DNA of 64,000 bases from Candidatus Nitrosopumilus sediminis. GTDB lineage: Archaea; Thermoproteota; Nitrososphaeria; Nitrososphaerales; Nitrosopumilaceae. The DNA is taken from assembly GCF_000299395.1 (NCBI RefSeq), contig NC_018656.1:310001-374000 (forward strand). Reading direction: 5' to 3'. The translations under genes were made by a program, and so were the position numbers. Under the pieces are notes generated by a model that was not told the origin of the DNA, did no database searches, and was given only the letters and a program-made list of their open reading frames with translations. Shown here one piece after another: positions 29,387-46,233 of the stretch (positions within the stretch are counted from its first letter, which is position 1; each line of letters begins with the position of its first letter).

Positions 29387-29488
29387 GCCGGGGTCGCCTA
29401 GCCTGGTAGGGCGCGCGCCTGGAAATTGTTTAACCATAAAGCGCGTTCTCGCAAGGGAACGGGAGTTCAAATCTCCCTCCCGGCGCCA
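29387..29488 (+). tRNA. tRNA-Ser (GGA) with a 15-nt intron
   Basis: A complete cloverleaf can be drawn. The acceptor stem GCCGGGG pairs with TCCCGGC, with discriminator G and an encoded CCA. The D arm is GCCT/GGGC. The anticodon stem is CGCGC/GCGCG and the T arm is GGGAG/CTCCC with a TTCAAAT loop. A long variable arm TTCTC-GCAA-GGGAA marks a class II tRNA; with discriminator G this means Ser rather than Leu. The anticodon is GGA at 29421-29423. The loop is 22 nt, leaving a 15-nt intron (29425-29439) at the canonical 37/38 position. Its 3' end is repeated at 30683. Confidence 0.93.
29468..29486 (+). repeat. Direct repeat, tRNA copy (attL-like)
   Basis: CAAATCTCCCTCCCGGCGC within the 3' end of tRNA-Ser. 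It matches 30683-30701 at 18 of 19 positions. Confidence 0.8.
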
Positions 29489-29667
29489 TTTTTTAAAGTG
29501 TTAATGCAATGTTACAAATCTCACTTTAGACTGCAAGAGTAAAAGGTTCGAAGTACTTATGAATATCATAATTTTAACTTGATTAATTGAAAACTAGTTG
29601 AAAGAATTAGAGTTGAGATTATTTTCAATAGACCAATGATTACATTATAGAGGTCCTGTTTAAAATA

Positions 29668-30480
29668 ATGGTGCGAAAATACAAACCAACTATATCATAC
29701 AGATTAAGAGAGATTCCAATAAAGCAGATCAAAATATGGAAAGAGGCACAGGCACGAAAGCTTGACAGAGAAAACATCGCAGAACTTGCAAAGTCAATAA
29801 AAAATGAAGGACTGTTGAATCCACCTTTGGTTCAAAAAGAAGGTAAAAACACGTTTTTGCTAATGTCAGGCCAAAGACGTTTAGCTGCATTAAAGAGATT
29901 AGGCGCCAAGAAAATACCAGTGCATGTGCTTACAAAACAGACATCATATGATCTTGAGAATGCAAAGGCCGCATCAGTAGTTGAAAATATACATAGAAAA
30001 GACATGAATCACAAAGAGATTGCAGATTCGTGTAAATTTTTGACAGAACATGTTGGAAAATCATCTGCAGCAAAATCAATGGGAATGTCTATTCCAACCC
30101 TTAACAAATATCTGGGATTTGCAGGAGTTCCAGACAAATTAAAGTCGATGGTGCCTCAATTGTTATCTCGAGATGAGGTGACAAAACTATATCTAATAAT
30201 ACCTAACATTGCAAAAGCACAAAAAATAGCAGATAGAATTTCCAAACTAGATTCAGGTTTACGAAAAAGATATCTTCAGGCATTATCCCAATCACCAAAA
30301 TCATCGCATCAAAAGCTGATTAAACGAGCAAAGAACATGAGAATCAAACAGAATTTATCTATAAAACTATCAAAGACCAATGCAAGAAAGCTTGCATCTC
30401 GATCAAACAAAAAAGAATTGACACCAGACGAGTTGGCATTAAAAATAATTTCAGACTACCTTAAGCGCAAAAGAAAATAA
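29668..30480 (+). CDS. ParB-like partition protein
   Basis: DNA-binding protein of 270 residues with an N-terminal ParB/Srx domain. KQIKIWKEAQARKLDRENIA precedes the ParB nucleotide-binding-type motif MSGQRRLAALKRLGAKKIPV near residues 65-85, and NIHRKDMNHKEIADSC follows. A helix-turn-helix (KSSAAKSMGMSIPTLNKYLG, ~130-150) follows, then a Lys-rich C-terminal tail. The usual ParA ATPase partner is not adjacent. It lies between the two tRNA-Ser 3'-end copies and is followed at once by palindromes that could be its binding sites. It may be a plasmid-derived partition protein or a chromosomal regulator. Confidence 0.85.
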   Translation: MVRKYKPTISYRLREIPIKQIKIWKEAQARKLDRENIAELAKSIKNEGLLNPPLVQKEGKNTFLLMSGQRRLAALKRLGAKKIPVHVLTKQTSYDLENAKAASVVENIHRKDMNHKEIADSCKFLTEHVGKSSAAKSMGMSIPTLNKYLGFAGVPDKLKSMVPQLLSRDEVTKLYLIIPNIAKAQKIADRISKLDSGLRKRYLQALSQSPKSSHQKLIKRAKNMRIKQNLSIKLSKTNARKLASRSNKKELTPDELALKIISDYLKRKRK

Positions 30481-30482
30481 TT

Positions 30483-30501
30483 CATTATTTTTGAAATAAT
30501 G
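30483..30501 (+). terminator. Hairpin at end of the parB-like gene
   Basis: CATTATTT-TTG-AAATAATG is an 8-bp perfect inverted repeat with a 3-base loop, starting 3 bases after the ParB-like stop. It may end the transcript or be the first element of the inverted-repeat cluster. Confidence 0.5.
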
Positions 30502-30509
30502 CCACATAA

Positions 30510-30525
30510 CCAAGAAATTTCTTGG
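30510..30525. repeat. Perfect 16-bp palindrome CCAAGAAATTTCTTGG
   Basis: The two 8-bp halves are exact reverse complements with no spacer. It lies 30 bases downstream of the ParB-like gene. The size equals that of bacterial parS sites, although the sequence differs. A binding site for the adjacent ParB-like protein is an inference. Confidence 0.6.
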
Positions 30526-30556
30526 AACCATGCTTTCGTTATAAATGAAAGGGCAC

Positions 30557-30628
30557 GGCATCAAACTAATTTCATAAATCCCGCTCAAAGTACACAACCA
30601 AAAAGTTCTGTTAAATTAGTTTGATGCC
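30557..30628. repeat. 16-bp inverted repeat with 40-nt spacer
   Basis: GGCATCAAACTAATTT (30557-30572) is the exact reverse complement of AAATTAGTTTGATGCC (30613-30628). The spacer has no coding potential. It could form a long hairpin RNA or a DNA site for a dimeric protein. Confidence 0.75.
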
Positions 30629-30682
30629 CTCCTTTTGCTGTATGTCGTGCCTAACTCTTATTGGAGTGTCAATGTGATCTGA

Positions 30683-30701
30683 CAAATCGCCCTCCCGGCG
30701 C
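30683..30701 (+). repeat. Direct repeat, distal copy of tRNA-Ser 3' end (attR-like)
   Basis: CAAATCGCCCTCCCGGCGC differs from the tRNA copy at one base. It stands out as a GC-rich patch in AT-rich intergenic DNA. Confidence 0.75.
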
Positions 30702-30774
30702 GGGAACTCTACCACCATTATGGGATTAAAAGTGGACGCAAGTATGCGTGAAAATTGTAATTTTAAAAATTAGA

Positions 30775-31440
30775 TTATGGTTTGTAATCTTCAGCTGTTT
30801 TTTTCATTTCTTCTGACTTTACCATGGCATCATCTTTGTACTCAACATCTTGTTTCTCTGTTCCTGTAGAGTTGGATTTATGATCTTCAGCTGTTTTTTT
30901 CATTTCTTCTGATTTTTCCATAGCATCAGCATAGTTTGAGAGTTCTTTCATTGCAATACCAATGTCTTTTTTAGAATTATCGATTATCACTTGGATTCTT
31001 AATTGTGCTTGTTCTGGAAGTGTGTCTTTGAGTTCAGTTAGAACTTCCACATGTTTGGATGATGCAGACACTATATCTTCAGTTAAAGATGCCTTGTCTG
31101 CAGCTTTTGATGCAGAGTCTGCAATTTTCTTTGCATCAGATACTTGTTTTTCATAGTCTTTTGTTAAATCGTCAACTTGTTCAGGCATTCCTTTTTGAAC
31201 CATTGCATTTGCTTCACTTAGTCGAAGTTCTGCAAATTTCAGATGTTTTGTAACTTTATCGTTTTGATTAAATGTAAATGCCAAGTCTAATCCTTCAAAT
31301 GCTTTTTTGAATCCATATACAAATGAGTCAGGAGTGGTTCCAGGTTCAGGTAGATCATCAATACTTTGAGCATAGATACTAGGAATTGTCATTATCAATA
31401 ATGAAATAGTAAGTAATGCTGTGATGCTATATTGATTCAT
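30775..31440 (-). CDS. Secreted DUF5667-type helical protein
   Basis: Exported 221-residue protein with a clear signal peptide (ITALLTISLLIMTIPSIYAQ). It then has the DUF5667 text PGTTPDSFVYGFKKAFEGLD and KVTKHLKFAELRLSEANAM, which is predicted to be a long helical bundle. The C-terminus carries an internal duplication, EKSEEMKKTAEDHK and VKSEEMKKTAEDYK. Function is unknown; such proteins are frequent on thaumarchaeal surfaces. A CAGCG/TTAATA promoter-like motif lies about 110 bases upstream, with a tiny ORF in between. Confidence 0.85.
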   Translation of the reverse strand: MNQYSITALLTISLLIMTIPSIYAQSIDDLPEPGTTPDSFVYGFKKAFEGLDLAFTFNQNDKVTKHLKFAELRLSEANAMVQKGMPEQVDDLTKDYEKQVSDAKKIADSASKAADKASLTEDIVSASSKHVEVLTELKDTLPEQAQLRIQVIIDNSKKDIGIAMKELSNYADAMEKSEEMKKTAEDHKSNSTGTEKQDVEYKDDAMVKSEEMKKTAEDYKP

Positions 31441-31457
31441 ACTAAAGCAGTGTCTTC

Positions 31458-31526
31458 CTAATATGACTGAGTAGAAACCAATACTGCTAATACAGGAAGT
31501 ATTAGAATTTGTTTTGTTCTCGTCAT
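31458..31526 (-). CDS. Possible 22-aa leader-like peptide upstream of the DUF5667 gene
   Basis: MTRTKQILILPVLAVLVSTQ followed by SY and a stop. It looks like a basic n-region plus hydrophobic h-region of a signal peptide. The ATG lies about 24 bases downstream of a TTAATA box, ideal for a leaderless start, and 86 bases upstream of the DUF5667 ATG. It could be a secreted micro-peptide, a regulatory upstream ORF or an artefact. Confidence 0.35.
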   Translation of the reverse strand: MTRTKQILILPVLAVLVSTQSY

Positions 31527-31549
31527 TGTTAATATAATTGCAAATAGTG

Positions 31550-31570
31550 TATTAAGCCGCGCTGACATGG
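31550..31570 (-). promoter_or_regulatory. CAGCG/TTAATA promoter motif, copy c
   Basis: On the minus strand it reads CCATGTCAGCGCGGCTTAATA. It is one of the recurring elements upstream of secreted or stress genes in this window. Confidence 0.55.
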
Positions 31571-31604
31571 ATGTTATTTTTACTTACACATTTGTTACCA
31601 TTTC

Positions 31605-31730
31605 TTAGGTTTTAGTTAGCATTGATTCCTCTTCTGCAAGTAATTTTTCTACTTCGATTTTGTGAGGCTTACAATACAATCCATTTTCTACACATTCGGG
31701 GCATCTTAGATATTTGTAATAATCAATCAT
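31605..31730 (-). CDS. 41-aa zinc-ribbon-like microprotein
   Basis: The short gene reads MIDYYKYLRCPECVENGLYC, then KPHKIEVEKLLAEEESMLTK and T. CPEC and YCKPH supply a possible C-x2-C/C-x2-H metal site, followed by an acidic helix. A TATTATAAC box lies about 27 bases before the ATG on the minus strand, which supports leaderless expression. The opposite-strand 81-codon frame over this stretch has no such features. Function unknown. Confidence 0.6.
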   Translation of the reverse strand: MIDYYKYLRCPECVENGLYCKPHKIEVEKLLAEEESMLTKT

Positions 31731-31852
31731 GTTGCAACTCGTTTCTTATTTGTTATAATACATTTCACCTGATTCCCCACATACAACGTTGTGTGTTTTT
31801 GTCAAAAAATATATCCGCTGCTTGCGAAATAGATAGTCTAAAAAAGAAAAAA

Positions 31853-32038
31853 TTATTTTTGGCGTAATGATTCTACAACAAGTCTGTTCAAATCAATTAC
31901 AAGACATGCAGGGTGAGTAATTTTTTCTGCTTCTATTCCACATGTATGACAAAACAATCTTGTTGGCTCCTCACATACTTTGCATATGTGTTCAACTTCC
32001 AACTTTGACTCACATATTCTACAAGAATTACTATGCAT
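31853..32038 (-). CDS. 60-aa double zinc-finger microprotein, family member 1
   Basis: A 61-residue protein with eight metal ligands in the exact spacing C-x2-C-x9-C-x2-C-x7-C-x2-C-x8-H-x2-C (Cys6 to Cys45). The text includes SCRICESKLEVEHICKVCEE and FCHTCG. Identical spacing occurs in the proteins at 38921-39103 and 46234-46416, so they are paralogues. It is cytosolic and probably binds two zinc ions. The function is unknown; protein or nucleic-acid binding is possible. Confidence 0.75.
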   Translation of the reverse strand: MHSNSCRICESKLEVEHICKVCEEPTRLFCHTCGIEAEKITHPACLVIDLNRLVVESLRQK

Positions 32039-32155
32039 AGATATACAGTAGATAAATTAACTTAAAAATAATACTAAAATTAGAAACAGCTAATTAGTCT
32101 GGACTATTAATTCTAATCTTATAGAACATGTTAAGATCTATTTTTAATCTCAGAA

Positions 32156-32647
32156 TCAATCTTTATGTTGTTTGTATAATTTTTGTTTTTGTGAATTATT
32201 AATCACTATAACCTCTTCATCGAATTTTTTATTTGGAATAAGCATTATTCTTGAATCCTCTAACTCAACAATTGTTTTTGTCAATCCGATCTGAATTATT
32301 TTACCATTTTTTTTGTCAAACTCGATTTCACTTCCCACATTCATTCTTCTTCCTAGAGCAATACTCATACCAGAAATTGCATTTTGTAGTTTGTTCAAAT
32401 ATACAAATGTGAAAAACAATAAAATAACACTGAGGGATGTGACGACTTCTATTGCCGGGGTTAGAATTTTCAGTGTTGCAGAAACATACATGATTTCAGC
32501 TATTGCGATGATTATGAAAATTACTCCTGTGGCCTTTCCTGAACCTAATAATGTTCTAAATTTTGTGAATTCTACTATTTTAATAATGATGAAAACTAGT
32601 GCGGTAATTACAATTGAAATAATTGCATACATTACATTACTATCCAT
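32156..32647 (-). CDS. MscS-type mechanosensitive channel-like protein
   Basis: A 163-residue protein with three hydrophobic helices (YAIISIVITALVFIIIKIVE, GVIFIIIAIAEIMYVSATLK, VTSLSVILLFFTFVYL). They are followed by a beta domain like that of MscS (LGRRMNVGSEIEFDKKNGKI, ELEDSRIMLIPNKKFDEEVI). It is shorter than E. coli MscS (286 aa) and lacks the C-terminal cage. It lies divergently next to the ect operon. An MscS-type gene beside ectABCD is known from Nitrosopumilus, which suggests solute release on hypo-osmotic shock. Confidence 0.8.
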   Translation of the reverse strand: MDSNVMYAIISIVITALVFIIIKIVEFTKFRTLLGSGKATGVIFIIIAIAEIMYVSATLKILTPAIEVVTSLSVILLFFTFVYLNKLQNAISGMSIALGRRMNVGSEIEFDKKNGKIIQIGLTKTIVELEDSRIMLIPNKKFDEEVIVINNSQKQKLYKQHKD

Positions 32648-32754
32648 TTTTCTAACTAATTTGATAAAGAATAAAAGAATCTGTATTGTTTCTAGCTTAA
32701 TTTACACACATTTGCTGACAAAATATTAACTAATTCTTTTTACAAAAGATTTCA

Positions 32755-33132
32755 ATGACTGAAAATAACGATTTGGTAAAAAATCTAGCAGAATGTTTTC
32801 AAACTAATGGATTAGAAGTTCTAACTGCAAAATGTAATGGCTTTGAAGAGCCTCCTGACATTCAAGGTATCAAACCTGATGTTGTTGGATGGGATTCTAA
32901 AGACGAAGTATATCATTTAGCAATTGTTGCTGATTCTAATACGTTTGAACATGATTATATTACAGAAAAAATAACTGTCTTATCCAAACAAGCAATGGGT
33001 ACCGGACCTTCTTATGGAAAACGTTTGCCATTTTATGTTGGTGTTACCAAAGATGCAAATGCTGTAGTTGATAAAAAATTGCAAGAAATCGACCAAGTAT
33101 CTAGAGAAAACATCAAAAAAATTCTAATTTAA
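32755..33132 (+). CDS. Hypothetical protein upstream of ectA (125 aa)
   Basis: Soluble protein of 125 residues that I cannot assign firmly. The segment GIKPDVVGWDSKDEVYHLAI resembles the beta-hairpin of PD-(D/E)XK nuclease-like folds. The distal catalytic Gln/Lys pattern is not certain, so this is only a structural hint. It lies 4 bases before the ectA ATG and is probably the first gene of the ect transcript, so a role in osmostress regulation or an unrelated passenger are both possible. Confidence 0.7.
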   Translation: MTENNDLVKNLAECFQTNGLEVLTAKCNGFEEPPDIQGIKPDVVGWDSKDEVYHLAIVADSNTFEHDYITEKITVLSKQAMGTGPSYGKRLPFYVGVTKDANAVVDKKLQEIDQVSRENIKKILI

Positions 33133-33136
33133 GGAA

Positions 33137-33640
33137 ATGTCTTCAATTATTTTCAGAGAACCATTAGTAAGCGATGCTGATTCCATATGGAATTTGGTAA
33201 ATTCTAACAAACCTCTTGATGAAAATTCAAAATATCTTTATGTTTTGCTTTGCCATCAATTTTCAAAAACCTGTGTAGTTGCAGAATCTGATTCTAAAAT
33301 CATTGGTTTTCTTTCCGGCTTCATTTCTCCAAAAAATCCTGACACTCTATTTGTTTGGCAGGCCGCAGTAGATGATGAGTTCAGAAATAAAGGAATAGCA
33401 AAAGAACTTGTCTTAAAAGCATTATCTCAAACAGATCCCACTGTACAGTTTGTTGAGGCCACAGTCACTCCTTCTAACAAGGCATCCTTGAAATTTTTAC
33501 AGAATTTTGCCTCTCAACTTGACGCTGACTTTACAAAATCACCTTTGTTTTCAACTGAAATCTTGGGACATAATCATGAGCCTGAAGATTTGATACGAAT
33601 TGGCCCAATACAAAAAAGTCTTTTGGAGGTTACTGCATGA
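33137..33640 (+). CDS. ectA: L-2,4-diaminobutyrate N-acetyltransferase
   Basis: Second step of ectoine synthesis: acetylates diaminobutyrate at the gamma-amino group. GNAT-fold protein of 167 residues starting with IIFREPLVSDADSIWNLVNS. The acetyl-CoA motif is VWQAAVDDEFRNKGIAKELV and VEATVTPSNKASLKFL follows. These match EctA closely. Its stop overlaps the ectB start by ATGA, so it is coupled with the rest of ectABCD. Confidence 0.95.
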   Translation: MSSIIFREPLVSDADSIWNLVNSNKPLDENSKYLYVLLCHQFSKTCVVAESDSKIIGFLSGFISPKNPDTLFVWQAAVDDEFRNKGIAKELVLKALSQTDPTVQFVEATVTPSNKASLKFLQNFASQLDADFTKSPLFSTEILGHNHEPEDLIRIGPIQKSLLEVTA

Positions 33641-34932
33641 AACGAATCAATACAATTGAATCTCAAGTAAGATCTTACTGTAGATCTTATCCTGTAATGT
33701 TTGATAAAGCAAAAGGTCCGTTCCTCTTTGACAAAGATGAAAATAAATACTATGATTTTTTGTGTGGAGCTGGCTCATTAAATTATGGACATAATAATCC
33801 TATTTTGAAAAAAGAGATTATTGATTATTTGAATCAAGACGGAATAATTCATAGTTTAGATCTTACTACAAAATCCAAAGAAGAATTTCTGAATTCCTTT
33901 TCAAAAAATATCTTGGCAACTAGGAATCTAAATTATAAAATTCAGTTTACTGGACCTACTGGAACAAATGCAGTAGAAGCAGCACTAAAAATTGCAAGAA
34001 AAGTAACTGGTAGAACCAATATTATTTCATTTACAAATGCTTTTCATGGTGTAACTTTAGGTTCTGTATCTGCCACAGGAAATAGTCATCATAGAGGTGG
34101 TGCAGGAACATCACTAAATGATGTCACATTTATGCCCTATGATGGTTACATGGGAAAGAAAATTAACACCATTGATTACCTACGACGTGTTCTGGAGGAT
34201 AATAGTAGTGGAATAGATATGCCAGCTGCAGTTATTTTGGAAACAGTCCAAGGTGAAGGTGGAATTAATGTTGCAAGCTCTAAATGGCTTCAATCATTAC
34301 AAGATCTTTGTCATGAATTTGGAATCTTAATGATTGTAGATGACATTCAAGCAGGATGTGGTCGCACAGGTACCTTTTTCAGTTTTGAAAATTCAGGAAT
34401 CGAGCCTGATCTTATAGTTTTGTCTAAATCCATTAGTGGGTTTGGATTACCGTTTTCATTACTTTTACTGAAACCCGAATTTGATAAATGGAAACCTGGG
34501 GAGCATAATGGAACATTCAGAGGAAACAACATGGCCTTTGTTACTGCCAGGGCTACTATTGATAATTTTTGGACTACTCAGGAATTAGAAGCAGAGATTG
34601 CAATAAAATCCAATATTTTAAAAACTAGGCTTGAAAAAATTGCTCAAGAAAATATTTCCTCTGATGTTGAAGTTCGTGGAAAAGGAATGATCTATGGAAT
34701 TGATTGTATTCTAGAAGATCTGGCAAGTGCAATTCAACAAAGGTGTTTTGAAAATGGATTGATTCTTGAAACATGTGGGTCTGATGATCAAGTTGTAAAA
34801 CTTCTTCCCGCCTTGACAATCAATGAAAATGATTTGATAGGGGGATTAAATATTTTGGAAAAAAGCATTAAACAAGTGATGAGTCAATCTGACTTTCAGA
34901 AAAAACTTGAAGATTGGGTTGTTCAAAAATGA
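33637..34932 (+). CDS. ectB: Diaminobutyrate-2-oxoglutarate transaminase
   Basis: First step of ectoine synthesis: transaminates aspartate-semialdehyde to L-2,4-diaminobutyrate using glutamate. Class III PLP aminotransferase of 431 residues with [18 protein letters not shown], the PLP-phosphate/active-site Asp region [19 protein letters not shown] and the Schiff-base Lys in [12 protein letters not shown] (about residue 265). EctB-specific text [15 protein letters not shown] is present. It overlaps both ectA and ectC. Confidence 0.96.
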
Positions 34933-35318
34933 TAGTGCGAAATATTGAATCTCTTCGTGGAACAGAACGTCAAATTGATTCGGAAAATTGGTCTAGTATT
35001 AGACTGATTCTTAAAGATGATAACATGGGTTTTTCATTTCATGAAACAACTCTTTATCCTGACACTGAAACTGAAATTTACTACAAAAATCATCTTGAGA
35101 CAGTATATTGTATCGAGGGAACTGGTCAGATACAAGAAGATGATGGAACTGTACACAACATAAATCCAGGCACAGTTTATGCTTTAGATAAACATGATAA
35201 ACATGTTCTTAGAGCATTTTCAAAAATGAGAATGATTTGTGTGTTTAATCCTGCATTGGTTGGCCCTGAAAAACATGACGAGAATGGCGTTTATCCTTTG
35301 ATCAATCCTGGATCTTGA
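34929..35318 (+). CDS. ectC: Ectoine synthase
   Basis: Cyclises N-gamma-acetyl-diaminobutyrate to ectoine. Small cupin of 129 residues starting [15 protein letters not shown], as in other EctC proteins. The cupin core includes [20 protein letters not shown] and [21 protein letters not shown] chose the ATG at 34929, which gives an ATGA overlap with ectB. An upstream in-frame ATG at 34914 would add five residues inside ectB. Confidence 0.95.
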
Positions 35319-35320
35319 TA

Positions 35321-36241
35321 ATGGCTGAAAATAAGTTTTATTTGGATTCTTATCCTACACGAACAAGTTCTGAATCAAAAATTATTCAAAGAACGAACTC
35401 TGTTGTATATTGTGATTCTTATGATGAATTAAATAAAGAACAAGTAGATTTTTTTGAAAAAAATGGTTATCTAATATTTGAAAATTTATTTTCTTCTGAT
35501 GAGATAACTAAACTGTTTGATGAGCTTACCTCTCTTTCACAAGATGAAATAAAAAAAGATCTTCCTCAATTCATTTTAGAAGAAACACAAAGAGATGTAC
35601 GTTCTATTTTTGAAATTCATAAAATTAGTAAACTATATGGCAAACTTTGTAGAGATAAGAGAATTTTAAAAATAGCACAACAACTTTTGGGAAGTAAGGT
35701 CTACATTCATCAATCCCGTGTAAACCTTAAACCTGGATTTGATGGTAAAGAATTCTATTGGCATTCTGATTTTGAAACATGGCACTCTGAGGATGGTATG
35801 CCAAACATGCGTGCTGTTTCATGTTCAATTAGTTTGACTAAAAATTATGAATTTAATGGACCCTTGATGGTAATCCCTGGTTCACATAAGGAATTTGTAT
35901 CTTGCAGTGGGAAAACACCTGATGAACACTATAAGCAATCTCTAAAAAGACAGGAAATAGGCACTCCTCAAAAAGAATTTCTAGAACAAATGGTTGAAAA
36001 AAGTAAGATTGTATCTGCAAAAGGAGATGCAGGTTCAGTAATCTTTTTTGATTGTAATATTATGCATGGTTCAAACGGCAATATCACGCCTTATCCTAGA
36101 AGTAATGCCTTTTTTGTTTATAATAGCATCCATAATACCTTGGTTGATCCATTTTGTGGTTTAAATCCCAGACCTACCTATATTGCAGAAAGAGAATTTT
36201 TGCCTCTTGAGCCTGTTGATAATTTTCTTGATTCAAAATAG
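35321..36241 (+). CDS. ectD: Ectoine hydroxylase
   Basis: Fe(II)/2-oxoglutarate dioxygenase converting ectoine to 5-hydroxyectoine. The EctD signature WHSDFETWHSEDGMPNMRAV (near residue 147) contains the HxD iron ligands, and FFDCNIMHGSNGN supplies the distal His. Length is 306 aa with the ATG at 35321; TTG at 35315 would add two residues and overlap the ectC stop. It is the last gene of ectABCD, so this organism can make hydroxyectoine, as known for Nitrosopumilus maritimus. Confidence 0.95.
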   Translation: MAENKFYLDSYPTRTSSESKIIQRTNSVVYCDSYDELNKEQVDFFEKNGYLIFENLFSSDEITKLFDELTSLSQDEIKKDLPQFILEETQRDVRSIFEIHKISKLYGKLCRDKRILKIAQQLLGSKVYIHQSRVNLKPGFDGKEFYWHSDFETWHSEDGMPNMRAVSCSISLTKNYEFNGPLMVIPGSHKEFVSCSGKTPDEHYKQSLKRQEIGTPQKEFLEQMVEKSKIVSAKGDAGSVIFFDCNIMHGSNGNITPYPRSNAFFVYNSIHNTLVDPFCGLNPRPTYIAEREFLPLEPVDNFLDSK

Positions 36242-36833
36242 ATTCTAATAAATCTAAAAACAAAACAACGCTTTATTCGATCTAATTATTTCTGATCATG
36301 TCTAAAACAAATGGCTCTGTTTTTAATTATGTGGTGCCTCATGTAGGGTAAGAACATCATGTATGTTGTCTAGATGATGCAAAATTGACTACATTATAAG
36401 ATCCAATCTTTTCTGTTTTTACAACACGACCCTATGCACCAAATGTGGAATTACTTCCTTAATGCGGCAATGTAAGTTTTTTGTCAAAACTTTTTGTGTG
36501 TGGTGATAGAAGACGCAGCATAAGGAAGATTCCACATAAACAATATCAAATGTGTAATTCATAATACCTTTTTAGCTATTTAATTGAAATTAAGCTTATG
36601 ATGATAAAATTAAGTATTGTCTTTATCATGATATGTGATCAAAAATAAAAGTCATTCATCTAAAAATATTTTTTTATATTAAAAATTATTTATCTGCAAA
36701 GGAAAGACTAGAATTTCAAAATTCATCAACATAACATTGGTTTTTATAAAATATAAACATCTGTAAACAAAAAAAGGTAATATCATGAATTTAGCTTATG
36801 AATTAATAATAATGATTTTATTGTAAGTGGTTT
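36242..36833. other. 592-bp gene-free stretch after ectD
   Basis: No convincing ORF on either strand (the longest open readings are under 20 codons). It contains the structured segment 36331-36537, a further inverted repeat ATGATAAA/TTTATCAT (36601-36629) and very AT-rich DNA leading to the promoter of the AsnC-like gene at 36834. Confidence 0.6.
36331..36537. ncRNA. Candidate structured RNA or long hairpin
   Basis: Arm ATGTGGAATTACTTCCTTAA plus TGC (36443-36465) pairs with GCATAAGGAAGATTCCACAT (36518-36537): 20 pairs interrupted only by 3 unpaired bases. An outer region GTGCCTCATGTAGGGT (36334-36349) can partly pair with ACCCTATGCAC (36429-36439), and CATCAT/ATGATG (36355-36379) forms an inner hairpin. 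Strand and expression are unknown. Confidence 0.4.
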
Positions 36834-37088
36834 ATGGGAGTTTCTTATTTGCTTCTTACATGTGCGATTCATAAAAACACTGAAGTTGCAAACACTATTC
36901 GTAAACTGTCTGGTGTACGAGAAGCTGTGCCTGTACACGGTGCATATGATTGTATTGTAAAAGTTGAAAAATCAACACCAGATGATGCCATCCAATTTAT
37001 TTTGTCTAGTATACGTCCGCTAGATGATATACGAAATATTATTACTTTACATGATGCACCACCCCTGATTATGAAACAAAATGTTTGA
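36834..37088 (+). CDS. Stand-alone AsnC/Lrp RAM-domain protein
   Basis: An 84-residue protein equal to the ligand-binding RAM domain of Lrp/AsnC regulators without the DNA-binding helix-turn-helix. It includes LLTCAIHKNTEVANTIRKLS, EAVPVHGAYDCIVKVEK and DIRNIITLHDAPPL. Such single-domain proteins can bind amino acids or form mixed oligomers with full-length regulators. A 54-aa ORF overlaps its 3' end. No DNA-binding segment is encoded upstream in any frame. Confidence 0.88.
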   Translation: MGVSYLLLTCAIHKNTEVANTIRKLSGVREAVPVHGAYDCIVKVEKSTPDDAIQFILSSIRPLDDIRNIITLHDAPPLIMKQNV

Positions 37089-37245
37089 ACACTTGAAATT
37101 AAATATATTTGTGTTAGATGATTCAATAGTTGTACAAAACCAAAAATACAAGTCCAAACATTTTCCTCGTTGTGGAATTACTGAAGTGGAATCATTTGTT
37201 TTGAATATGGTTAAAGATGGACAATTAGATGATCTCTTACATTAG
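37081..37245 (+). CDS. 54-aa hypothetical protein overlapping the AsnC-like gene
   Basis: The reading frame starts MFEHLKLNIFVLDDSIVVQN, contains FPRCGITEVESFVLNMV and ends QLDDLLH. Its ATG overlaps the preceding stop by 8 bases (ATGTTTGA), a layout suggesting translational coupling. No family is recognised. Modest amphipathic character and the coupling are the only support. Confidence 0.45.
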   Translation: MFEHLKLNIFVLDDSIVVQNQKYKSKHFPRCGITEVESFVLNMVKDGQLDDLLH

Positions 37246-37385
37246 ACATTCCAAAAAGCGTTAGAGCAAAACAAACTCTATAACCCTGTTTTTTATTTAT
37301 TATGAAATAATTTGGCAATAACCTGAGCTGAAATTATCTATATTAGCTTATGATTTGTTATATCTTAATAATTGATAATAATCTC

Positions 37386-37577
37386 ATGAAAAATCTTTTA
37401 GATCCTAATCATGATTATCTTAAAACAGAGAAAAATGTGCGTAAATATCTAAAATCTTTGCCAAATTCCCAAATAAAATTATTTTATGAAGCTATTGAAT
37501 ATACATCATTTCCAGTATTATTAGCTCATGAATACACATCCAGGTTTAAGAAAAAAAAATCAAAACCTAAAAAATAA
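37386..37577 (+). CDS. 63-aa basic hypothetical protein
   Basis: Starts MKNLLDPNHDYLKTEKNVRK and ends in a Lys-rich tail (RFKKKKSKPKK). I chose the ATG at 37386; a frame extension to 37350 adds a poor hydrophobic leader with no start context. The protein is small, helical and highly basic at its end, possibly nucleic-acid-binding. It lies 41 bases upstream of the HTH regulator at 37619. Confidence 0.55.
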   Translation: MKNLLDPNHDYLKTEKNVRKYLKSLPNSQIKLFYEAIEYTSFPVLLAHEYTSRFKKKKSKPKK

Positions 37578-37618
37578 TTTGTGTGCTAATAAGGCTTTAA
37601 ATTACATCATCATATAAT

Positions 37619-38425
37619 TTGTTTATTATGGATAAATTTGAAATTGTGTCTTCTAATTTTTTAGAATTAGCAAGTGAACAAAGATTAAGAATCTTATCTG
37701 CTTTAAACTCTAAGCCTCATAGAGTAACCATGCTTGCAAAAAAATTAGATGTAACATCTCAAGAAATTCATAGAAATCTAGAACGATTATCAAATTCTGG
37801 ATTCGTAATTAAAAAACCTGATGAGCATTATTACATTACTACTACAGGACAATTGATGTTGAGCCAAATGCCAATAATGTTTTTTGTAACTAAAAATCAA
37901 AAATATTTTTCAACCCATGATATTGGAATATTGCCAGCTAAATTTAGTCGTAGATTGGGGGTTCTTGAAAATTGTGAACATGTCAAAGGCGTTACTAATG
38001 TTCTAGATAAATGGAAAAAAATCTATCAAAATTCTACAGAATTTATTAATGATATGATTAATGAATCTCCTTCTGGAATGGATGAAATTCTGATAAAGAG
38101 GGTCAATAACGGTGTAAAATATCGTCATATAGTGACCAGTGATCTTGAGGAACCAGAAGATAGGGTATCGGATTTAAAAAAATTAGGTTATTATGATTTA
38201 ATCAAGAATAACAAAATTGAGAGAAAGGAAATTACAACCACTAAAACAATATTGATTCTAAATGAAAAAGAAGCTGGAATAATCTTCCCTACTCTTGATG
38301 GTCAACCTGATCTTCGACATATGTTTTATGGAAATAGTGGTATGTTCTTAGATTGGGCTGTTGATTATTTTGAGTATTATTGGAAAAAGGCAAAAAATAT
38401 TTCCAGAGTGAATAATCATAAATAA
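37619..38425 (+). CDS. ArsR-like winged-helix regulator with large C-terminal domain, paralogue 1
   Basis: A 268-residue regulator. The N-terminal winged helix (SEQRLRILSALNSKPHRVTM, LDVTSQEIHRNLERLSNSGF) is followed by a long C-terminal domain of the kind found in archaeal COG4742-like regulators. KYFSTHDIGILPAKFSRRLG lies in the middle, and ILNEKEAGIIFPTLDGQPDL is near residue 218. The protein at 39456-40256 is a paralogue with the same layout. The effector is unknown. It starts at ATG 37628 or the in-frame codon at 37619. Confidence 0.85.
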   Translation: MFIMDKFEIVSSNFLELASEQRLRILSALNSKPHRVTMLAKKLDVTSQEIHRNLERLSNSGFVIKKPDEHYYITTTGQLMLSQMPIMFFVTKNQKYFSTHDIGILPAKFSRRLGVLENCEHVKGVTNVLDKWKKIYQNSTEFINDMINESPSGMDEILIKRVNNGVKYRHIVTSDLEEPEDRVSDLKKLGYYDLIKNNKIERKEITTTKTILILNEKEAGIIFPTLDGQPDLRHMFYGNSGMFLDWAVDYFEYYWKKAKNISRVNNHK

Positions 38426-38500
38426 TTACTCATTTGAATGACTTTTTTCCACATCTGATACATTGAGTTTGATAATCGACCAATCAAATCCCTCTGTAAT

Positions 38501-38734
38501 TCAGTTTCTTATATTATGTCTAATGGTAACTGTCTCGCCTTCTTTAACTTTCAATCTCGGTTTGTTATCTGAATGATTCGTTACTACCATTAATGTCTCA
38601 CAGTTTGGACAAAGTAAAGTGTCCATTCCAGATTTTTCAATAATTATGTTTGTTTCTAAATGCGCTTTTCCACAATTAACACATGTTTCTGATTTATCAT
38701 TGACGGTGTTTATTTTTGATACATAATATGTCAT
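38501..38734 (-). CDS. 77-aa zinc-ribbon protein
   Basis: C-x2-C (ETCVNCGKAH) and C-x2-C (LLCPNCETLM) separated by about 20 residues form a zinc ribbon. A basic C-terminal tail with KVKEGETVTIRHN follows. The ATG at 38734 is a good start. It lies between the two paralogous HTH regulators, on the opposite strand. Function unknown. Confidence 0.7.
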   Translation of the reverse strand: MTYYVSKINTVNDKSETCVNCGKAHLETNIIIEKSGMDTLLCPNCETLMVVTNHSDNKPRLKVKEGETVTIRHNIRN

Positions 38735-38920
38735 ATCATAAATCTCCTGATTCCAAATTAACTATGTGTAATCCTAAGATATGCTTCATGGATACTATTT
38801 TTACTAATGTTTTATTATGACTCGTAAAATAATTAGCTGAAAATCATATTTGAAGCTGATTGCAGTTACTGTTTTGCCCTATTTGTTACTTTTACCGTCT
38901 TTTACCTGCAATTCTTGGCA

Positions 38921-39103
38921 TTATGCTGTTTCTGAAATTAATGGGTTATGATTCATATCTACTAATCTGCATAATGAATGAATTTGCTCTTCTGGTTCAA
39001 AATAGCATTCTTTACAATTGAACTTGTTTGGTTCATTACAAATTGAACATTCTTGTTTGATTGTTAGTTCCATTCCACATTTTCTACAACTATCAACTCT
39101 CAT
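38921..39103 (-). CDS. 60-aa double zinc-finger microprotein, family member 2
   Basis: Starts MRVDSCRKCGMELTIKQECS and has the C-x2-C-x9-C-x2-C-x7-C-x2-C-x8-H-x2-C spacing seen at 31853 and 46234, with the ligands at identical residue numbers (6, 9, 19, 22, 30, 33, 42, 45). Sequence outside the ligands is diverged, so the spacing is under constraint. Function unknown. Confidence 0.75.
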   Translation of the reverse strand: MRVDSCRKCGMELTIKQECSICNEPNKFNCKECYFEPEEQIHSLCRLVDMNHNPLISETA

Positions 39104-39203
39104 AATACAAGTACATCAAAATTTGCAATATATCTTGGTCAGCTGCATAGCTTACTTGTAATCTACTAGTTTTACCTGATTCTATCTATAACTATCACTA
39201 AAT

Positions 39204-39359
39204 ATGATCATGAAATCACAACAAATCTCAAACTGGGATAAAATGGTTCATGCCCCTTTCAAAAAGGTCGTAAAATTCGATCTTATCTGCATGGGAATCG
39301 GTGTGGTGATGGGAGTTGGCATTGGAGCATATTCAGTTGCTAGCGGTATCTTAAGCTAG
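39204..39359 (+). CDS. 51-aa single-span membrane protein
   Basis: The small gene reads MIMKSQQISNWDKMVHAPFK, then KVVKFDLICMGIGVVMGVGI with a C-terminal glycine-rich helix GAYSVASGILS. It has a soluble amphipathic N-terminus and one transmembrane segment, similar in design to small subunits of membrane complexes. An in-frame second ATG lies at 39210. No family assigned. Confidence 0.6.
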   Translation: MIMKSQQISNWDKMVHAPFKKVVKFDLICMGIGVVMGVGIGAYSVASGILS

Positions 39360-39455
39360 CAACACAACTCTTTTTTATAAAAACTTGAAACTGTTTTCTT
39401 AGTTACAGCTTATTTCCCTCTAGTTTTTATCTTTCAAAATTATAATGAGTTTCTA

Positions 39456-40256
39456 ATGGGTGACTTGATTGATGAAACTGCTGACTATGTTTTGGAATTA
39501 GCTAGTTCTCAAAGATTGAATATTTTATTTAGATTGTCAAGCAAAAATTTGACTCCTACTGCACTTGCAAAAGAAATTGATGCAACAAAACAGGAAGTAC
39601 ACAGAAATTTCACAAGACTAGAAGAAAATGGGTTAATAAAAAAGAAAATTGATGGAACATACACATTAACGACATTTGGACAGATAGTGTGTACCCAGGT
39701 CCCATCGTTAGTATTTCTTACACAAAACAGGAAATATTTTGAAGAGCACAATTTTGGAGAAATTCCACACAAATTTCAAATGCGTTGTGGCCAATTAGCA
39801 GTGTGTCAACGTGTTAAGGGTTTTTCTAAAACAATAGAACAATGGAAAAATATTTACAAAAATTCTGATGATTACATATACGAAATATTATCAGAAGTTC
39901 CTCTAGATCTGATTGAGCCACTCATAAAGAAAGTCAAGAAAGGAATAAAATTTGATTACATTTTTTCTGAATCTGCAGTAGTTCCAAAAGGAAGGAAGGC
40001 ACTTCTTAAGAAATTAGGGTTTGATAAATTAATGGAAGATGGATTGATTCAAAGAAAAATGACAAAAAATGTTCAAACAGTTCTTGTAATGAATGAGAAA
40101 GAGGCATGCATAATGTTTCCTACAGTAAATGGAGAGTCTGATATTAGTGAAATGTTCTATTCAGATGATCCAATGTTTCATGAATGGTGTCTTGATTATT
40201 TCAGATATTGCTGGTATGGCTCTGATGTTTTCAAAGAGAGCAAATTAAAAGAATAA
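39456..40256 (+). CDS. ArsR-like winged-helix regulator, paralogue 2
   Basis: A 266-residue paralogue of the regulator at 37619. The winged helix is ASSQRLNILFRLSSKNLTPT with EIDATKQEVHRNFTRLEENG, followed by the shared C-terminal domain (GEIPHKFQMRCGQLAVCQRV, VMNEKEACIMFPTVNGESDI). It contains several Cys residues absent from paralogue 1. It is immediately followed on the other strand by a 36-aa zinc-ribbon gene. Target genes unknown. Confidence 0.85.
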   Translation: MGDLIDETADYVLELASSQRLNILFRLSSKNLTPTALAKEIDATKQEVHRNFTRLEENGLIKKKIDGTYTLTTFGQIVCTQVPSLVFLTQNRKYFEEHNFGEIPHKFQMRCGQLAVCQRVKGFSKTIEQWKNIYKNSDDYIYEILSEVPLDLIEPLIKKVKKGIKFDYIFSESAVVPKGRKALLKKLGFDKLMEDGLIQRKMTKNVQTVLVMNEKEACIMFPTVNGESDISEMFYSDDPMFHEWCLDYFRYCWYGSDVFKESKLKE

Positions 40257-40257
40257 A

Positions 40258-40368
40258 TCACAATGATTTAGAACATTTCTCGCATAGCACAGGTTTATCT
40301 GTTGAATAAATTAATTTTGCATCTTTTTCTGTAATGCCGCATTTAAAACATTCAACAATTCTTACCAT
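40258..40368 (-). CDS. 36-aa zinc-ribbon microprotein
   Basis: MVRIVECFKCGITEKDAKLI then YSTDKPVLCEKCSKSL. Two C-x2-C knuckles 18 residues apart form a minimal zinc ribbon. ATG start at 40368; the stop lies next to the end of the HTH regulator. It is too short for normal gene finders. Function unknown. Confidence 0.6.
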   Translation of the reverse strand: MVRIVECFKCGITEKDAKLIYSTDKPVLCEKCSKSL

Positions 40369-40465
40369 GTTACTGTTCTATTTTCATCATTAAAAAATCA
40401 TATGTCTATTTTTTTAAATTTTATAATCACGAATAAGTTTAATAGTTAATTGAGTAATATTATTC

Positions 40466-40762
40466 ATGTCTATACAAAGACCTACAATTAGAAAACCAAA
40501 AATCCCAAAAATAAAAAAACCTCTAATTTCTAAACGTAAACGTATTGTAAAAAAAGCCCCTACACTTTCAGTGGGACGAATCAAGACAAAAACATCTCAT
40601 AAAAAACACATCACACACAAAAAACATACTACAATTGTGGGAACATGTTATCTTGAAGAAAATTGCAAGGGTGTCATATCTAGGAAAATTACAAAATCCC
40701 AATGCAAGCGTCAGGGTGGAAAGAGCTGGAAGAAAGTTGGTGGAAAATGTGAGAAATTATAG
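40466..40762 (+). CDS. Lys-rich protein with C-terminal Cys motif (98 aa)
   Basis: The N-terminal 55 residues are extremely basic and Pro-rich (TIRKPKIPKIKKPLISKRKR). The C-terminal 40 residues form a compact Cys domain (GTCYLEENCKGVISRKITKS, QCKRQGGKSWKKVGGKC) with four Cys. The composition suggests nucleic-acid or polyanion binding. No family was recognised. The ATG is preceded by an AT-rich promoter region. Confidence 0.65.
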   Translation: MSIQRPTIRKPKIPKIKKPLISKRKRIVKKAPTLSVGRIKTKTSHKKHITHKKHTTIVGTCYLEENCKGVISRKITKSQCKRQGGKSWKKVGGKCEKL

Positions 40763-40892
40763 TTTCTCTAATTTAGCTTTTTGTAATATGGATATGCTTA
40801 CAAAGAAATTATGCGAGTAATTATGCTCAAAACAACAAAAATAGGTATTGTAAATATCATATGATGTATTCAGGTTAAAATAAAACCGCTCC

Positions 40893-41327
40893 TCAAATGT
40901 TTAACATTGCACATTTAACACTAACATAAATATGATTTACGGTGCTATCGTGGTAAATTTTTTCAGGACTGACTTTAGAGGATTTACCCATAACAATTAG
41001 ATCGATTTTATGGGATTTTACATAAGATATGATACATGTTGAGGCAACGTTACAACTAGAAATTTTTGAATTACATTGAATGTTGGATTCTTTTGCTATC
41101 TGTTCTAATTCTGATAACTTTTTTTCCATTACTTCATTTCTTTTCTTCATGTCTTTTTTTTCGGATTTTGTATCAAAAAATCCAAAGGTAGAGTTTTTTT
41201 CCATACAAGCAAGGATAGTGATTTTAGAAGAAAATTTTTTTGCAAGTTGAATTGCACTATTAAATGCCTTATCTCCAGGCTTTGTTCCATCATAGGGTAC
41301 AAGAATATGTCGAAAGAGTAATTCCAT
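40893..41327 (-). CDS. Universal stress protein (UspA family)
   Basis: A 144-residue UspA-fold protein beginning FRHILVPYDGTKPGDKAFNS and ending with the phosphate-binding-like segment VMGKSSKVSPEKIYHDSTVN. The usual ATP motif G-x2-G-x9-G-S is degenerate here, so nucleotide binding is uncertain. A TATCAGGAGTTAATA promoter-like element lies about 65 bases upstream. Likely a general stress response protein. Confidence 0.88.
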   Translation of the reverse strand: MELLFRHILVPYDGTKPGDKAFNSAIQLAKKFSSKITILACMEKNSTFGFFDTKSEKKDMKKRNEVMEKKLSELEQIAKESNIQCNSKISSCNVASTCIISYVKSHKIDLIVMGKSSKVSPEKIYHDSTVNHIYVSVKCAMLNI

Positions 41328-41390
41328 GTGTTAAAACCAACTATGTTGCATGTTGAATATATCCCATTGTTTATTTTATGAAATTTTCTT

Positions 41391-41480
41391 TATTAACTCC
41401 TGATATGATGGTGTATTTGACGTACAAACATGATGATATAGTAGACATATTGGTAAGAATTGTAAAATAATTAGATAATT
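41391..41480. repeat. Duplicated intergenic module, copy 1
   Basis: About 90 bp align with 43238-43330 at roughly three quarters identity. The closest part is GACATATTGGTAAG then ATTGTAAA (one mismatch over 23 bases). It carries a TTAATA box serving the minus-strand uspA gene, and its far end reaches the 3' end of the winged-helix gene at 41471. Confidence 0.6.
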
Positions 41481-41830
41481 CTTGCAATTATTTTTGCAAA
41501 GTCTCTACCATCTTTAGTTAATGAGATGTGGATTTTATTATCATAAATTGTAGATTTAGCAAGGCCTTTTTTTTCCATCCAGACAACATGTTTTGCAAGT
41601 CTTGCATAGTTTAGTTTGGTATCTAATGCCATCTGTGTTTTTCCTTCTGAAGGATGTTCAAGCATAAATTTTACTATCCTCATCAGAGTTTTCATACTGG
41701 GATCAAAAGTAGGTGCGATGGATTTGGATTTTATGATGTCTAACACTTTAGGATTGACAATTTTACTCAATATTGGCCCAATTACCTTTCTAAATGGTAG
41801 CTTATAATCCATATCTCCATAGACAGGCAT
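41471..41830 (-). CDS. Winged-helix transcriptional regulator (119 aa)
   Basis: A small DNA-binding protein. The N-terminal helices (PFRKVIGPILSKIVNPKVLD) are followed by a winged helix at residues ~45-110 (VKFMLEHPSEGKTQMALDTK, LNYARLAKHVVWMEKKGLAK and the wing STIYDNKIHISLTKDGRDFA). It resembles archaeal PadR/ArsR-like regulators of unknown effector. It is co-directional with the PEFG-CTERM gene 8 bases upstream and may be in its operon. Confidence 0.8.
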   Translation of the reverse strand: MPVYGDMDYKLPFRKVIGPILSKIVNPKVLDIIKSKSIAPTFDPSMKTLMRIVKFMLEHPSEGKTQMALDTKLNYARLAKHVVWMEKKGLAKSTIYDNKIHISLTKDGRDFAKIIARII

Positions 41831-41837
41831 ATCTAAT

Positions 41838-42434
41838 CTACAGTTTGAGAGATAACTTGCTTTTGGTACTAATTACCACTATACTTACAATTGACACAAC
41901 CAAAATCATCATTGCAATTGTTCCAAATTCAGGAACCACTTTAATCTCAAGAGATTCTCCATGAGGTCCAGTTATAGGAATATTTGCTCCCGTTCCTTGC
42001 AGTGTTATCTTGATGTTTACATTCTCATTACTAGGCAATTCTTCAGTAAGATGATCTCCGATGCCCATTTGTTGGTTAACCATAGTTTTATCCAAAATAA
42101 TTTGATCGTCTTGAGTTACAATTATGTCATAGTTTACATCTGTTATTTCTTGTCCATTTTTATCTGTAAATCTTACATTGATTGTCATATGTTCTCTCTC
42201 TACAGGTTCTGTAGATGTAACGAATATCCAAGTAGAGCCATCATCTGAAACAGTTTCTATTTTGATCATTGATCCCAGGTGATTTGCACCCAGACTAAGA
42301 GGAGTTAAAATAATCTCTTCTTGAGCAAAAACATTCACACTAAAACTAGATAGAACAAATAATGAAACTATAACAATAGAGAAACCATGAATAAACTTCA
42401 TTTTCTTTGGGTGTATTTTAAATGATTTTGACAA
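41838..42434 (-). CDS. Secreted PEFG-CTERM protein
   Basis: Exported protein with a signal peptide (KFIHGFSIVIVSLFVLSSFS then VFAQ) and a C-terminal PEFG motif: VVPEFGTIAMMILVVSIVSI followed by a basic end. This is the PEFG-CTERM sorting signal typical of Thaumarchaeota, thought to be processed by an archaeosortase. The middle is a beta-sandwich-like domain (GSTWIFVTSTEPVEREHMTI). The frame starts with TTG at 42434, 23 bases after a TTAATA box; an ATG at 42401 gives the better signal peptide. Confidence 0.85.
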   Translation of the reverse strand: MSKSFKIHPKKMKFIHGFSIVIVSLFVLSSFSVNVFAQEEIILTPLSLGANHLGSMIKIETVSDDGSTWIFVTSTEPVEREHMTINVRFTDKNGQEITDVNYDIIVTQDDQIILDKTMVNQQMGIGDHLTEELPSNENVNIKITLQGTGANIPITGPHGESLEIKVVPEFGTIAMMILVVSIVSIVVISTKSKLSLKL

Positions 42435-42456
42435 TACATTATCTCATGTTATAGAT

Positions 42457-42476
42457 TATTAACTAACGCTGACATG
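42457..42476 (-). promoter_or_regulatory. CAGCGTTA/TTAATA promoter motif, copy b
   Basis: On the minus strand it reads CATGTCAGCGTTAGTTAATA, ending 23 bases before the first possible start of the PEFG-CTERM gene. TTAATA acts as a TATA box, with TGTCAGCGT just upstream. Confidence 0.6.
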
Positions 42477-42646
42477 AATGTTGGTTTAATGTACATATTT
42501 GAAATTAACATGGACAAAATTGTCAATGTTGGAATTATTAAAAATGGACATCCGACATTGAAGAATAAACATCACATAGAATGAATTATCAAAAGTCTAG
42601 TTTTCATTTCCTAATCTCAAGTCTAATTTTCAATTCTAAATAAAAA

Positions 42647-43210
42647 TTAGTAGAGGGTTCCCCATCCTCGTGTTTCAAGAGATATCGCAGTTAATGGTTC
42701 AACGCATGCAACTGAATCTCTGTGGTTGCTCTGAACTAGCATGTGCTTATCCATGCAAATAACTTGTGCAGCATTTGTACCTAATTCAATTTGTTTCAAG
42801 GGGGTCAAATACATCCCTGTTGATTGATCATGTACCAAGTCGTTAATTCCAATTACAATTAGGGCTTTGTTAGTTGCAGACACATGTGAGGCCTCAATTC
42901 CGTAAACTCCTTTGTCAAACGAGCCTAAAGGACCAGTGATCAAGGCAGAAAATTTACCATCCTCTACATTGCTTCGGTCTTGAATTATTTTATTACCATT
43001 TGAGTCATAGACTACAATTGTAACTAGTTCATAGAATGCATCTCCCGGAACTACTGTACCTGTAAGAAATATTCTCGCAGTTGGTTCAAAAACAGTTTTT
43101 TCTAAAACTAAAGTTATTTCAGATTCTGCTAATGCATAACCATGACTCAATGACGATGCGATTATTATTGAGACTATGATCATACTTAGTTTGTTTATTT
43201 TATTGTTCAT
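42647..43210 (-). CDS. Secreted protein with Ig-like domain (187 aa)
   Basis: The signal peptide (SMIIVSIIIASSLSHGYALA) is followed by a beta-sandwich domain typical of thaumarchaeal surface proteins (ITLVLEKTVFEPTARIFLTG, VTIVVYDSNGNKIIQDRSNV). A C-terminal Cys pair (QVICMDKH, SVACVEPL) follows. No sorting signal or membrane anchor is seen, so it may be released or bound. The ATG at 43210 lies 28 bases from a GTTAATA box. Confidence 0.8.
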   Translation of the reverse strand: MNNKINKLSMIIVSIIIASSLSHGYALAESEITLVLEKTVFEPTARIFLTGTVVPGDAFYELVTIVVYDSNGNKIIQDRSNVEDGKFSALITGPLGSFDKGVYGIEASHVSATNKALIVIGINDLVHDQSTGMYLTPLKQIELGTNAAQVICMDKHMLVQSNHRDSVACVEPLTAISLETRGWGTLY

Positions 43211-43237
43211 GTATTGTATGTTTTATGATATTTACAG

Positions 43238-43256
43238 TATTAACTGACGCTGATAT
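43238..43256 (-). promoter_or_regulatory. CAGCGTCA/TTAATA promoter motif, copy a
   Basis: On the minus strand it reads AATATCAGCGTCAGTTAATA, 28 bases before the ATG of the secreted protein at 43210. This is the best-defined copy of the recurring motif. Confidence 0.6.
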
Positions 43257-43330
43257 TACGGTGTGTTTGATGAACATATCTAATAATATAATTGACATAT
43301 TGGTAAGTATTGTAAACTTACTAGATGATT
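43238..43330. repeat. Duplicated intergenic module, copy 2
   Basis: Aligns with 41391-41480. Both copies place the TTAATA box at the same end, facing a minus-strand gene, and both end in a TTAGAT/CTAGAT stretch. Confidence 0.6.
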
Positions 43331-43368
43331 ATCAAAATTATATTTTGTTAGAAAAAATCTAAAGGTGA

Positions 43369-43653
43369 TCAAGCTTCTCGTCCATTAACTGTTCGTTCTG
43401 CTGCTTCACTGAAAGCTTTTTCTGAAACTTCTTTTCCTTTTTTAATAGGTTTTTTAGATAGTGTTTTTGGACCTTTACCACTAGGGGTGACTGTTCGCTC
43501 TGCTGCATTATCGTAAGCTTCTTTTGTAATGGCCTTTCCTTTCTTATCCGCAACTGTTTTTTGCGGTATTGGTTTGTTTTCTGCTGCTATGACAGTTCTT
43601 TTTGCAACAGTATTCCATGCTGATTCTTTAGATTTCTTGATTTTTTCACTCAT
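43369..43653 (-). CDS. AERTV-repeat basic protein (94 aa)
   Basis: A soluble Lys-rich protein with three copies of an A(W/Y/F)-x2-(V/A)-A-x-RTV motif: ESAWNTVAKRTV, EAYDNAAERTV and KAFSEAAERTV. Basic linkers (KPIPQKTVADKKGKA, KPIKKGKEVSE) separate them. The regular ~30-residue period suggests short helical repeats that bind a polymer or form filaments. No family recognised. Confidence 0.7.
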   Translation of the reverse strand: MSEKIKKSKESAWNTVAKRTVIAAENKPIPQKTVADKKGKAITKEAYDNAAERTVTPSGKGPKTLSKKPIKKGKEVSEKAFSEAAERTVNGREA

Positions 43654-43717
43654 AATTTTTTATGGTGAAATAGCTAATTAAGAAGAACGGATGTTTATGT
43701 AAAGAAGATGTACAGAA

Positions 43718-43735
43718 TTGTCAGCGTCGTTTAAT
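43718..43735 (+). promoter_or_regulatory. CAGCGTCG/TTAATG promoter motif, copy d
   Basis: TTGTCAGCGTCGTTTAATG on the plus strand lies about 25 bases before the ATG at 43759. It has the same core as the minus-strand copies at 42457 and 43238. Confidence 0.55.
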
Positions 43736-43758
43736 GTATTATTTTAGAAAATAAGATC

Positions 43759-46081: not shown

Positions 46082-46097
46082 TTTAGGAGGGAAGAAG

Positions 46098-46220: not shown

Positions 46221-46233
46221 GGTGGTGATAAAA

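Follow-up and report, generated by a model that had tools for sequence, protein, structure and literature searches.

In the part of Krupovic et al. 2019 (PMC6563490) consulted here, the integrated elements of thaumarchaea are described as cryptic integrated elements (CIE) and ICEs, and TFIIB-ParB pairs are reported in the ICEs. The part of Park et al. 2014 (PMC4010524) consulted here places ectoine clusters in the middle of a genomic island in Nitrosopumilus AR1 and AR2. The window, which is the whole stretch of 64,000 nucleotides analysed (positions 310001-374000 of a single-contig Nitrosopumilus genome of 1,690,905 bases), contains next to a tRNA-Ser gene what is probably an orphaned attR. 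It would lie in a composite, decaying island, of a kind already known from thaumarchaeal integrated elements, in which a ParB-like gene is retained as cargo.

The tRNA-Ser gene, its distal repeat and the adjoining island

The features of the window to which the analysis refers are the following:

29387-29485, +: tRNA-Ser gene, class II, with an intron (Rfam tRNA, 40.5 bits); integration target
29468-29486, +: tRNA-proximal repeat copy, the att core
29487-29514, +: flank of chromosomal type immediately following the tRNA, as opposed to an element left end (similarity to G025 and G012)
29490-49256: variable island with parB, DUF5667, MscS, ectABCD, HTH regulators, UspA and Hsp20
29525-29591, +: dispersed repeat C, promoter-like, upstream of the ParB gene, with copies elsewhere
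29668-30480, +: solo ParB-like gene, intact, with ParB_N and HTH (Pfam PF02195, E 4e-14)
30557-30572 / 30613-30628: inverted repeat, 16 nt and perfect, within which motif B falls
30558-30580: motif B, a sibling sequence that lies 108 bp upstream of motif A
30650-30696, +: motif A, right-end sequence of tRNA-Ser elements (0 chance matches expected)
30683-30701, +: distal copy of the tRNA-Ser 3' end, a putative orphan attR core
30702-30745, -: inverted match to the subterminal hairpin module preceding motif A in G012 (80% over 40 nt, E 4e-4; weak, tentative)
33137-36241, +: ectABCD, ectoine and hydroxyectoine (EctA and EctD by TIGR02406 and TIGR02408, above cutoff)
49257-50315, +: aRF1, conserved chromosomal neighbour of tRNA-Ser, where synteny resumes

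The tRNA-Ser gene at 29387-29485 was missed by ARAGORN; its encoded CCA, read from the sequence, extends it to 29488, and its anticodon would be GGA. The original prediction was that the 3' end of this gene recurs 1,215 bp downstream, and that the interval holds one ParB-like gene and a cluster of inverted repeats but no integrase. Both statements are borne out. The two copies form a direct repeat of 19 nt with one mismatch and a spacing of 1215, and the distal one is the best match to the core (18) in the 19.8-kb stretch up to aRF1. In 500 doublet shuffles the maximum was 15 of 19 and the mean 12.0, so that the observed 18 was never attained, and the runner-up 20-mer match before aRF1 reached only 13/20. 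The shuffles thus rule out a random GC-rich patch, the origin that would have undone the prediction. A structured RNA at the distal repeat was likewise considered and rejected, there being no Rfam family and no common fold across 29 motif A copies folded singly.

The distal 19-mer is not isolated, but belongs to a longer conserved unit (30650-30701) in which it forms the 3' end of motif A, a conserved sequence of about 45 bp (CCTAACTCTTATTGGAGTGTCAATGTGATCTGACAAATCGCCCTCCC). Four copies of motif A are present in the window's own genome. With at most one mismatch, it occurs in 14 of 95 Nitrosopumilus genomes, while the reversed control pattern yields almost nothing, and it is absent from all 245 genomes that represent the order's other genera; it has been found only in Nitrosopumilus and appears to be specific to that genus. 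Pattern searches of viral contigs revealed no relatives of motif A, the ParB or the integrase.

The sibling motif B gives 15 matches in a scan of 1.44 Mb, against 0 for its reversed control. At three unrelated loci it lies 106-110 bp upstream of motif A (window 30558/30666; L220 11547/11653; L225 9629/9519), a spacing that suggests a fixed two-site architecture. Several motif A copies at non-tRNA sites (L126 9893, L127 9948, L213 4331, L221 3384) are followed by GCCCTCCCA and then by an inverted motif-B-like half, which in copies of the L213 type reads GATTTGAAATTAGTTTGACAC; these copies have two inverted half-sites around a spacer of 8-9 bp, like recombinase core sites.

The island between tRNA-Ser and aRF1 measures 19.8 kb in the window versus less than 0.2 kb in genomes G022, G032, G036 and G078. 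Its UspA, Hsp20 and regulators are named from sequence, and EctB and EctC are assigned from sequence and homologues. Dispersed sequences are found here as well. Repeat C has three further copies near 634-646 kb of the same genome (L126 1018, 4179 and 11241; 82-90% identity), two of which end at gene starts, and others in G031 and G034. A 65-bp segment at 45331-45395 has a counterpart of 98% identity in the tRNA-Ser to aRF1 interval of G025, and represents another dispersed island repeat family.

Integrated elements at tRNA-Ser in related genomes

In G012, tRNA-Ser is followed by an element with a 431-aa tyrosine integrase (Pfam Phage_integrase), ABC-3C genes, Pst/PhoU genes and motif A. Motif A and the tRNA 3' end (CCCTCCCGGCGCCAT) lie 11.7 kb downstream of tRNA-Ser, and the 3' end into which motif A runs is GCCCTCCCGGCGCCAT. 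This 11.7-kb element (1706-13445 of L070, which is G012 contig 5: 6500-26400) thus brings together a set of ABC-three-component defence genes and one for phosphate uptake (Pst/PhoU).

Other relatives exhibit the same arrangement in various states. In G070, a G012-type integrase follows tRNA-Ser on one contig, and a second contig has motif A with GGCGCT just before aRF1; a C-terminal ParB fragment lies 2.5 kb before its tRNA-Ser attR. G065 contains two successive motif A copies, with the tRNA 3' end on the outer copy, and G013 a broken or decayed integrase and motif A, 1.3 kb after the tRNA. The occupant in G066 is only 2.8 kb long and has no integrase, carrying instead a TFB gene and a DUF6659 gene. 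It was suggested that related genomes be compared for an empty tRNA-Ser site, and G079 is one that matches G066: with the occupant removed, the flanks of G066 align with G079, and the FAD-enzyme gene found at G066 stands directly after tRNA-Ser in G079. In addition, genes for the general transcription factors TFB and TBP are repeatedly met within or next to tRNA-Ser elements and copies of motif A (L209 of G065, L210 of G066 and L212 of G101).

The ends of these elements are well conserved. Wherever the left junction can be read, which is the case in five elements (G012, G013, G065, G066 and G070), the left end, CATCCAATTAGTATAAATCTCCGCC, is nearly identical, and the att core is duplicated at both element ends in G012, G065 and G066. 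In G012, G065, G066 and G070, the end of motif A coincides with the att core. The extension GGCGC after CCCTCCC, which lies beyond the motif A consensus, is present only in copies at tRNA-Ser (window, G012, G065 and G070). The distal sequence of the window is therefore of the type that forms the attR of elements inserted at tRNA-Ser in G012, G065, G066 and G070, and to judge from this comparison it is a true attR-type scar.

Among approximately 31 motif A copies, seven lie on the same strand within 12 kb downstream of tRNA-Ser, where about 0.1 would be expected (binomial p about 2e-11). The tRNA-Ser integrase family is present in 10 of the 14 genomes with motif A versus 10 of the 81 others (p 1e-5, phylogeny ignored). 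Because the elements of relatives end in motif A plus the tRNA 3' end, because G066 and G079 form an occupied and empty pair, and because motif A clusters behind the gene, the tRNA-Ser 3' end is, on genomic evidence, a genuine and repeatedly used integration site in Nitrosopumilus. The proposed use of this 3' end as an att site is thus upheld, and G066 with its TFB gene demonstrates that small integrase-less occupants, also proposed, occur there.

Junctions of the 1.2-kb interval and the ParB gene

The outer junctions of the interval differ from those of the elements above. The left end CATCCAATTAGTATAAATCTCCGCC is absent from the window and from the entire genome, and the tRNA is followed instead by a chromosomal-type flank: 29471-29514 shares 91% identity with the sequence that follows the tRNA in G025, and 85% over 40 nt with the flank on the far side of attR in G012. 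The flank of 28 nt is short, and could alternatively be a divergent element left end. On the other side, the sequence from 30702 on is unlike the chromosomal tRNA flank of relatives; its only match is the weak inverted one to the G012 module. An empty-site-type chromosomal flank after attR, which is present for G066 versus G079, is therefore absent in the window. When aligned to G025, the joined tRNA and right flank gives 41%, and the unjoined flank 75%. Because the left end is missing, the flank at the tRNA is of chromosomal type and the right flank is non-chromosomal, the 1.2-kb interval is not a clean element; 29468-30701 as one integrated unit is disfavoured by both outer junctions and is not supported.

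The ParB gene exceeds the cutoff for TIGR00180 (87.6 bits) and matches ParB 7bnr (E 8e-15), and also Noc, in PDB. It is intact and under strong purifying selection, since its dN/dS is 0.07-0.10 against nearer relatives. Of the 95 genomes, 12 others encode close relatives (74-88% identity), which stand at loci different from this one. None of the relatives' ParB loci compared has a tRNA-Ser beside it, and an intact ParB between tRNA-Ser and motif A was found in no relative. The neighbours of ParB are EctB, TFB, HTH regulator and zinc-finger genes in G012 and G082; in G085 and G086, they encode UspA, MscS and HTH regulators. In several relatives, the genes beside ParB (ectoine, UspA, TFB, HTH) are of the cargo type that follows ParB here up to aRF1. 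In G085, ParB lies 8 kb after a tRNA, which is followed by an integrase of the tRNA-Ser integrase family. A second, Noc-like ParB is encoded at about 1.297 Mb of the window's genome (L127 8689-9540, minus strand), with a copy of motif A at a distance of about 0.4 kb.

The best reading of the gene is that it is retained island cargo, and not evidence of a 1.2-kb replicon. Its assignment to a stand-alone 1.2-kb element fails on the loci of its relatives, which lie elsewhere and in several cases amid the ectoine/UspA/TFB set; the ParB fragment in G070 would fit ParB as true cargo of a tRNA-Ser element. The protein is probably a DNA-binding or partition-type protein inherited from TFIIB-ParB integrative elements, and it may partition something.

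Alternative readings and comparison with known systems

Four other readings have been weighed against that of an orphaned attR. According to one, 29468-30701 is a single minimal integrated element, or a satellite mobilised in trans, that runs from attL to attR and contains only parB and its sites. Both cores are present in the right orientation, its size class exists in the small TFB-bearing occupant of G066, and ParB has left a fragment in the G070 element. These points are outweighed by the family left end missing from window and genome, by the chromosomal-type flank on the wrong side, by the 41% of the joined flank against the 75% of the unjoined one, and by the absence of a cognate integrase, and this reading is improbable. 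No full relative of the tRNA-Ser integrase was found in the genome; among its three Pfam Phage_integrase matches is a different integrase at 631 kb, whose 39-aa C-terminal tail is the sole match. The search for a tRNA-Ser-targeting integrase, which the original prediction had proposed, thus returned no close relative, and since none is left in the genome, mobilisation by the integrase of another element is without a clear resident candidate. What survives of the predicted minimal or decayed replicon is the attR-type scar at a real integration site, whereas the single unit does not survive the evidence from the left end, the flanks and the ParB loci elsewhere. An unlikely reading, though hardly less so than the preceding one, is a cassette-like accretion, in which a tyrosine integrase working in trans would add small packets of genes without an integrase (TFB, ParB, aminotransferase) serially at tRNA-Ser via motif A, preceded by exchangeable hairpin modules, the scattered motif A copies being secondary recombination sites.

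The two remaining readings concern the motifs themselves, and both are very unlikely. Motifs A and B may be bound by ParB in the manner of parS, or may regulate ParB/TFB genes, with the similarity to the tRNA being secondary. Motif A contains TGTCA-8-TGACA and lies 0.2-1 kb from a ParB gene in three places, namely the window, contig 52 of G101 and the second ParB at 1.297 Mb, and ParB is present in 10 of the 14 motif A genomes versus 20 of the 81 others (p 0.001, phylogeny ignored). However, those 20 genomes have ParB without motif A and four have motif A without ParB, motif A is more strongly associated with the integrase than with ParB (p 1e-5 versus 0.001, neither corrected for phylogeny), and motif A stops exactly at the att core in the four relatives named above. 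Alternatively, motif A may be a dispersed non-autonomous repeat that is found downstream of tRNA-Ser by chance. Most copies elsewhere indeed have differing flanks, and those at non-tRNA sites have no direct-repeat partner within up to about 20 kb around each, but the seven clustered same-strand copies and the restriction of the GGCGC extension to tRNA-Ser strongly disfavour this origin.

Under the preferred reading, an orphaned attR in a composite island, the tRNA-Ser 3' end is the recurrent target of a Nitrosopumilus family of tyrosine-integrase elements, as the relatives show. Such an element has its conserved left end at the tRNA, and as its right end motif A, running into a copy of the tRNA T-arm and acceptor. 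Integration duplicates the core, so that attL stands at the tRNA and attR, made up of motif A and the core, at the other end, as comparison among the relatives shows. In the window, an element of this kind may have entered and subsequently lost its left end and integrase, or had them replaced, so that attR alone remains. Later rearrangement, in an order that we infer from the observed anatomy, would have placed the scar within the composite island of about 20 kb, and attR would have stayed there as the island grew and ParB and osmotic-stress genes were kept.

An empty and occupied pair and a conserved end sequence thus pin down a site at which elements repeatedly integrate in ammonia-oxidising archaea and by which genes for defence, phosphate transport and general transcription factors enter the chromosome. 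The locus is also a warning that a gene standing between two tRNA-derived repeats is not necessarily a mini-element. Of most interest in what remains is the motif A family, specific to the genus; no description of motif A as a shared right end was found in the consulted part of Krupovic et al. 2019 (PMC6563490).

ParB/Noc CTPase-type proteins carry a GERRxRA-type motif. The window gene resembles such partition proteins in its ParB_N and HTH domains and in its matches to ParB 7bnr and Noc, and differs from them in having GQRRLAA at the position of that motif and no ParA recognised among the neighbouring ORFs. The locus differs from thaumarchaeal ICEs in that no TFIIB gene lies upstream of its ParB and no conjugation genes (VirB4/VirD4) were recognised by eye among the island ORFs. 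With its ectABCD it holds an ectoine cluster, as do the genomic islands of AR1 and AR2, for which the consulted part of the source (PMC4010524) gives no tie to a tRNA-Ser att site. Compared with the CIE, the smallest of which is 2.6 kb in the consulted part of the report (PMC6563490), the interval has no integrase between its repeats, where ParB is the sole gene, and no left end after the tRNA, although the tRNA 3'-end direct repeat that flanks it is present (18/19 nt). In the same part of that report (PMC6563490), the CIE and ICEs resemble the tRNA-Ser system in their tyrosine integrase, in their targeting of tRNA 3' ends including those of intron-containing tRNAs, in their short att repeats (median 17 bp), and in their UspA and other auxiliary cargo.
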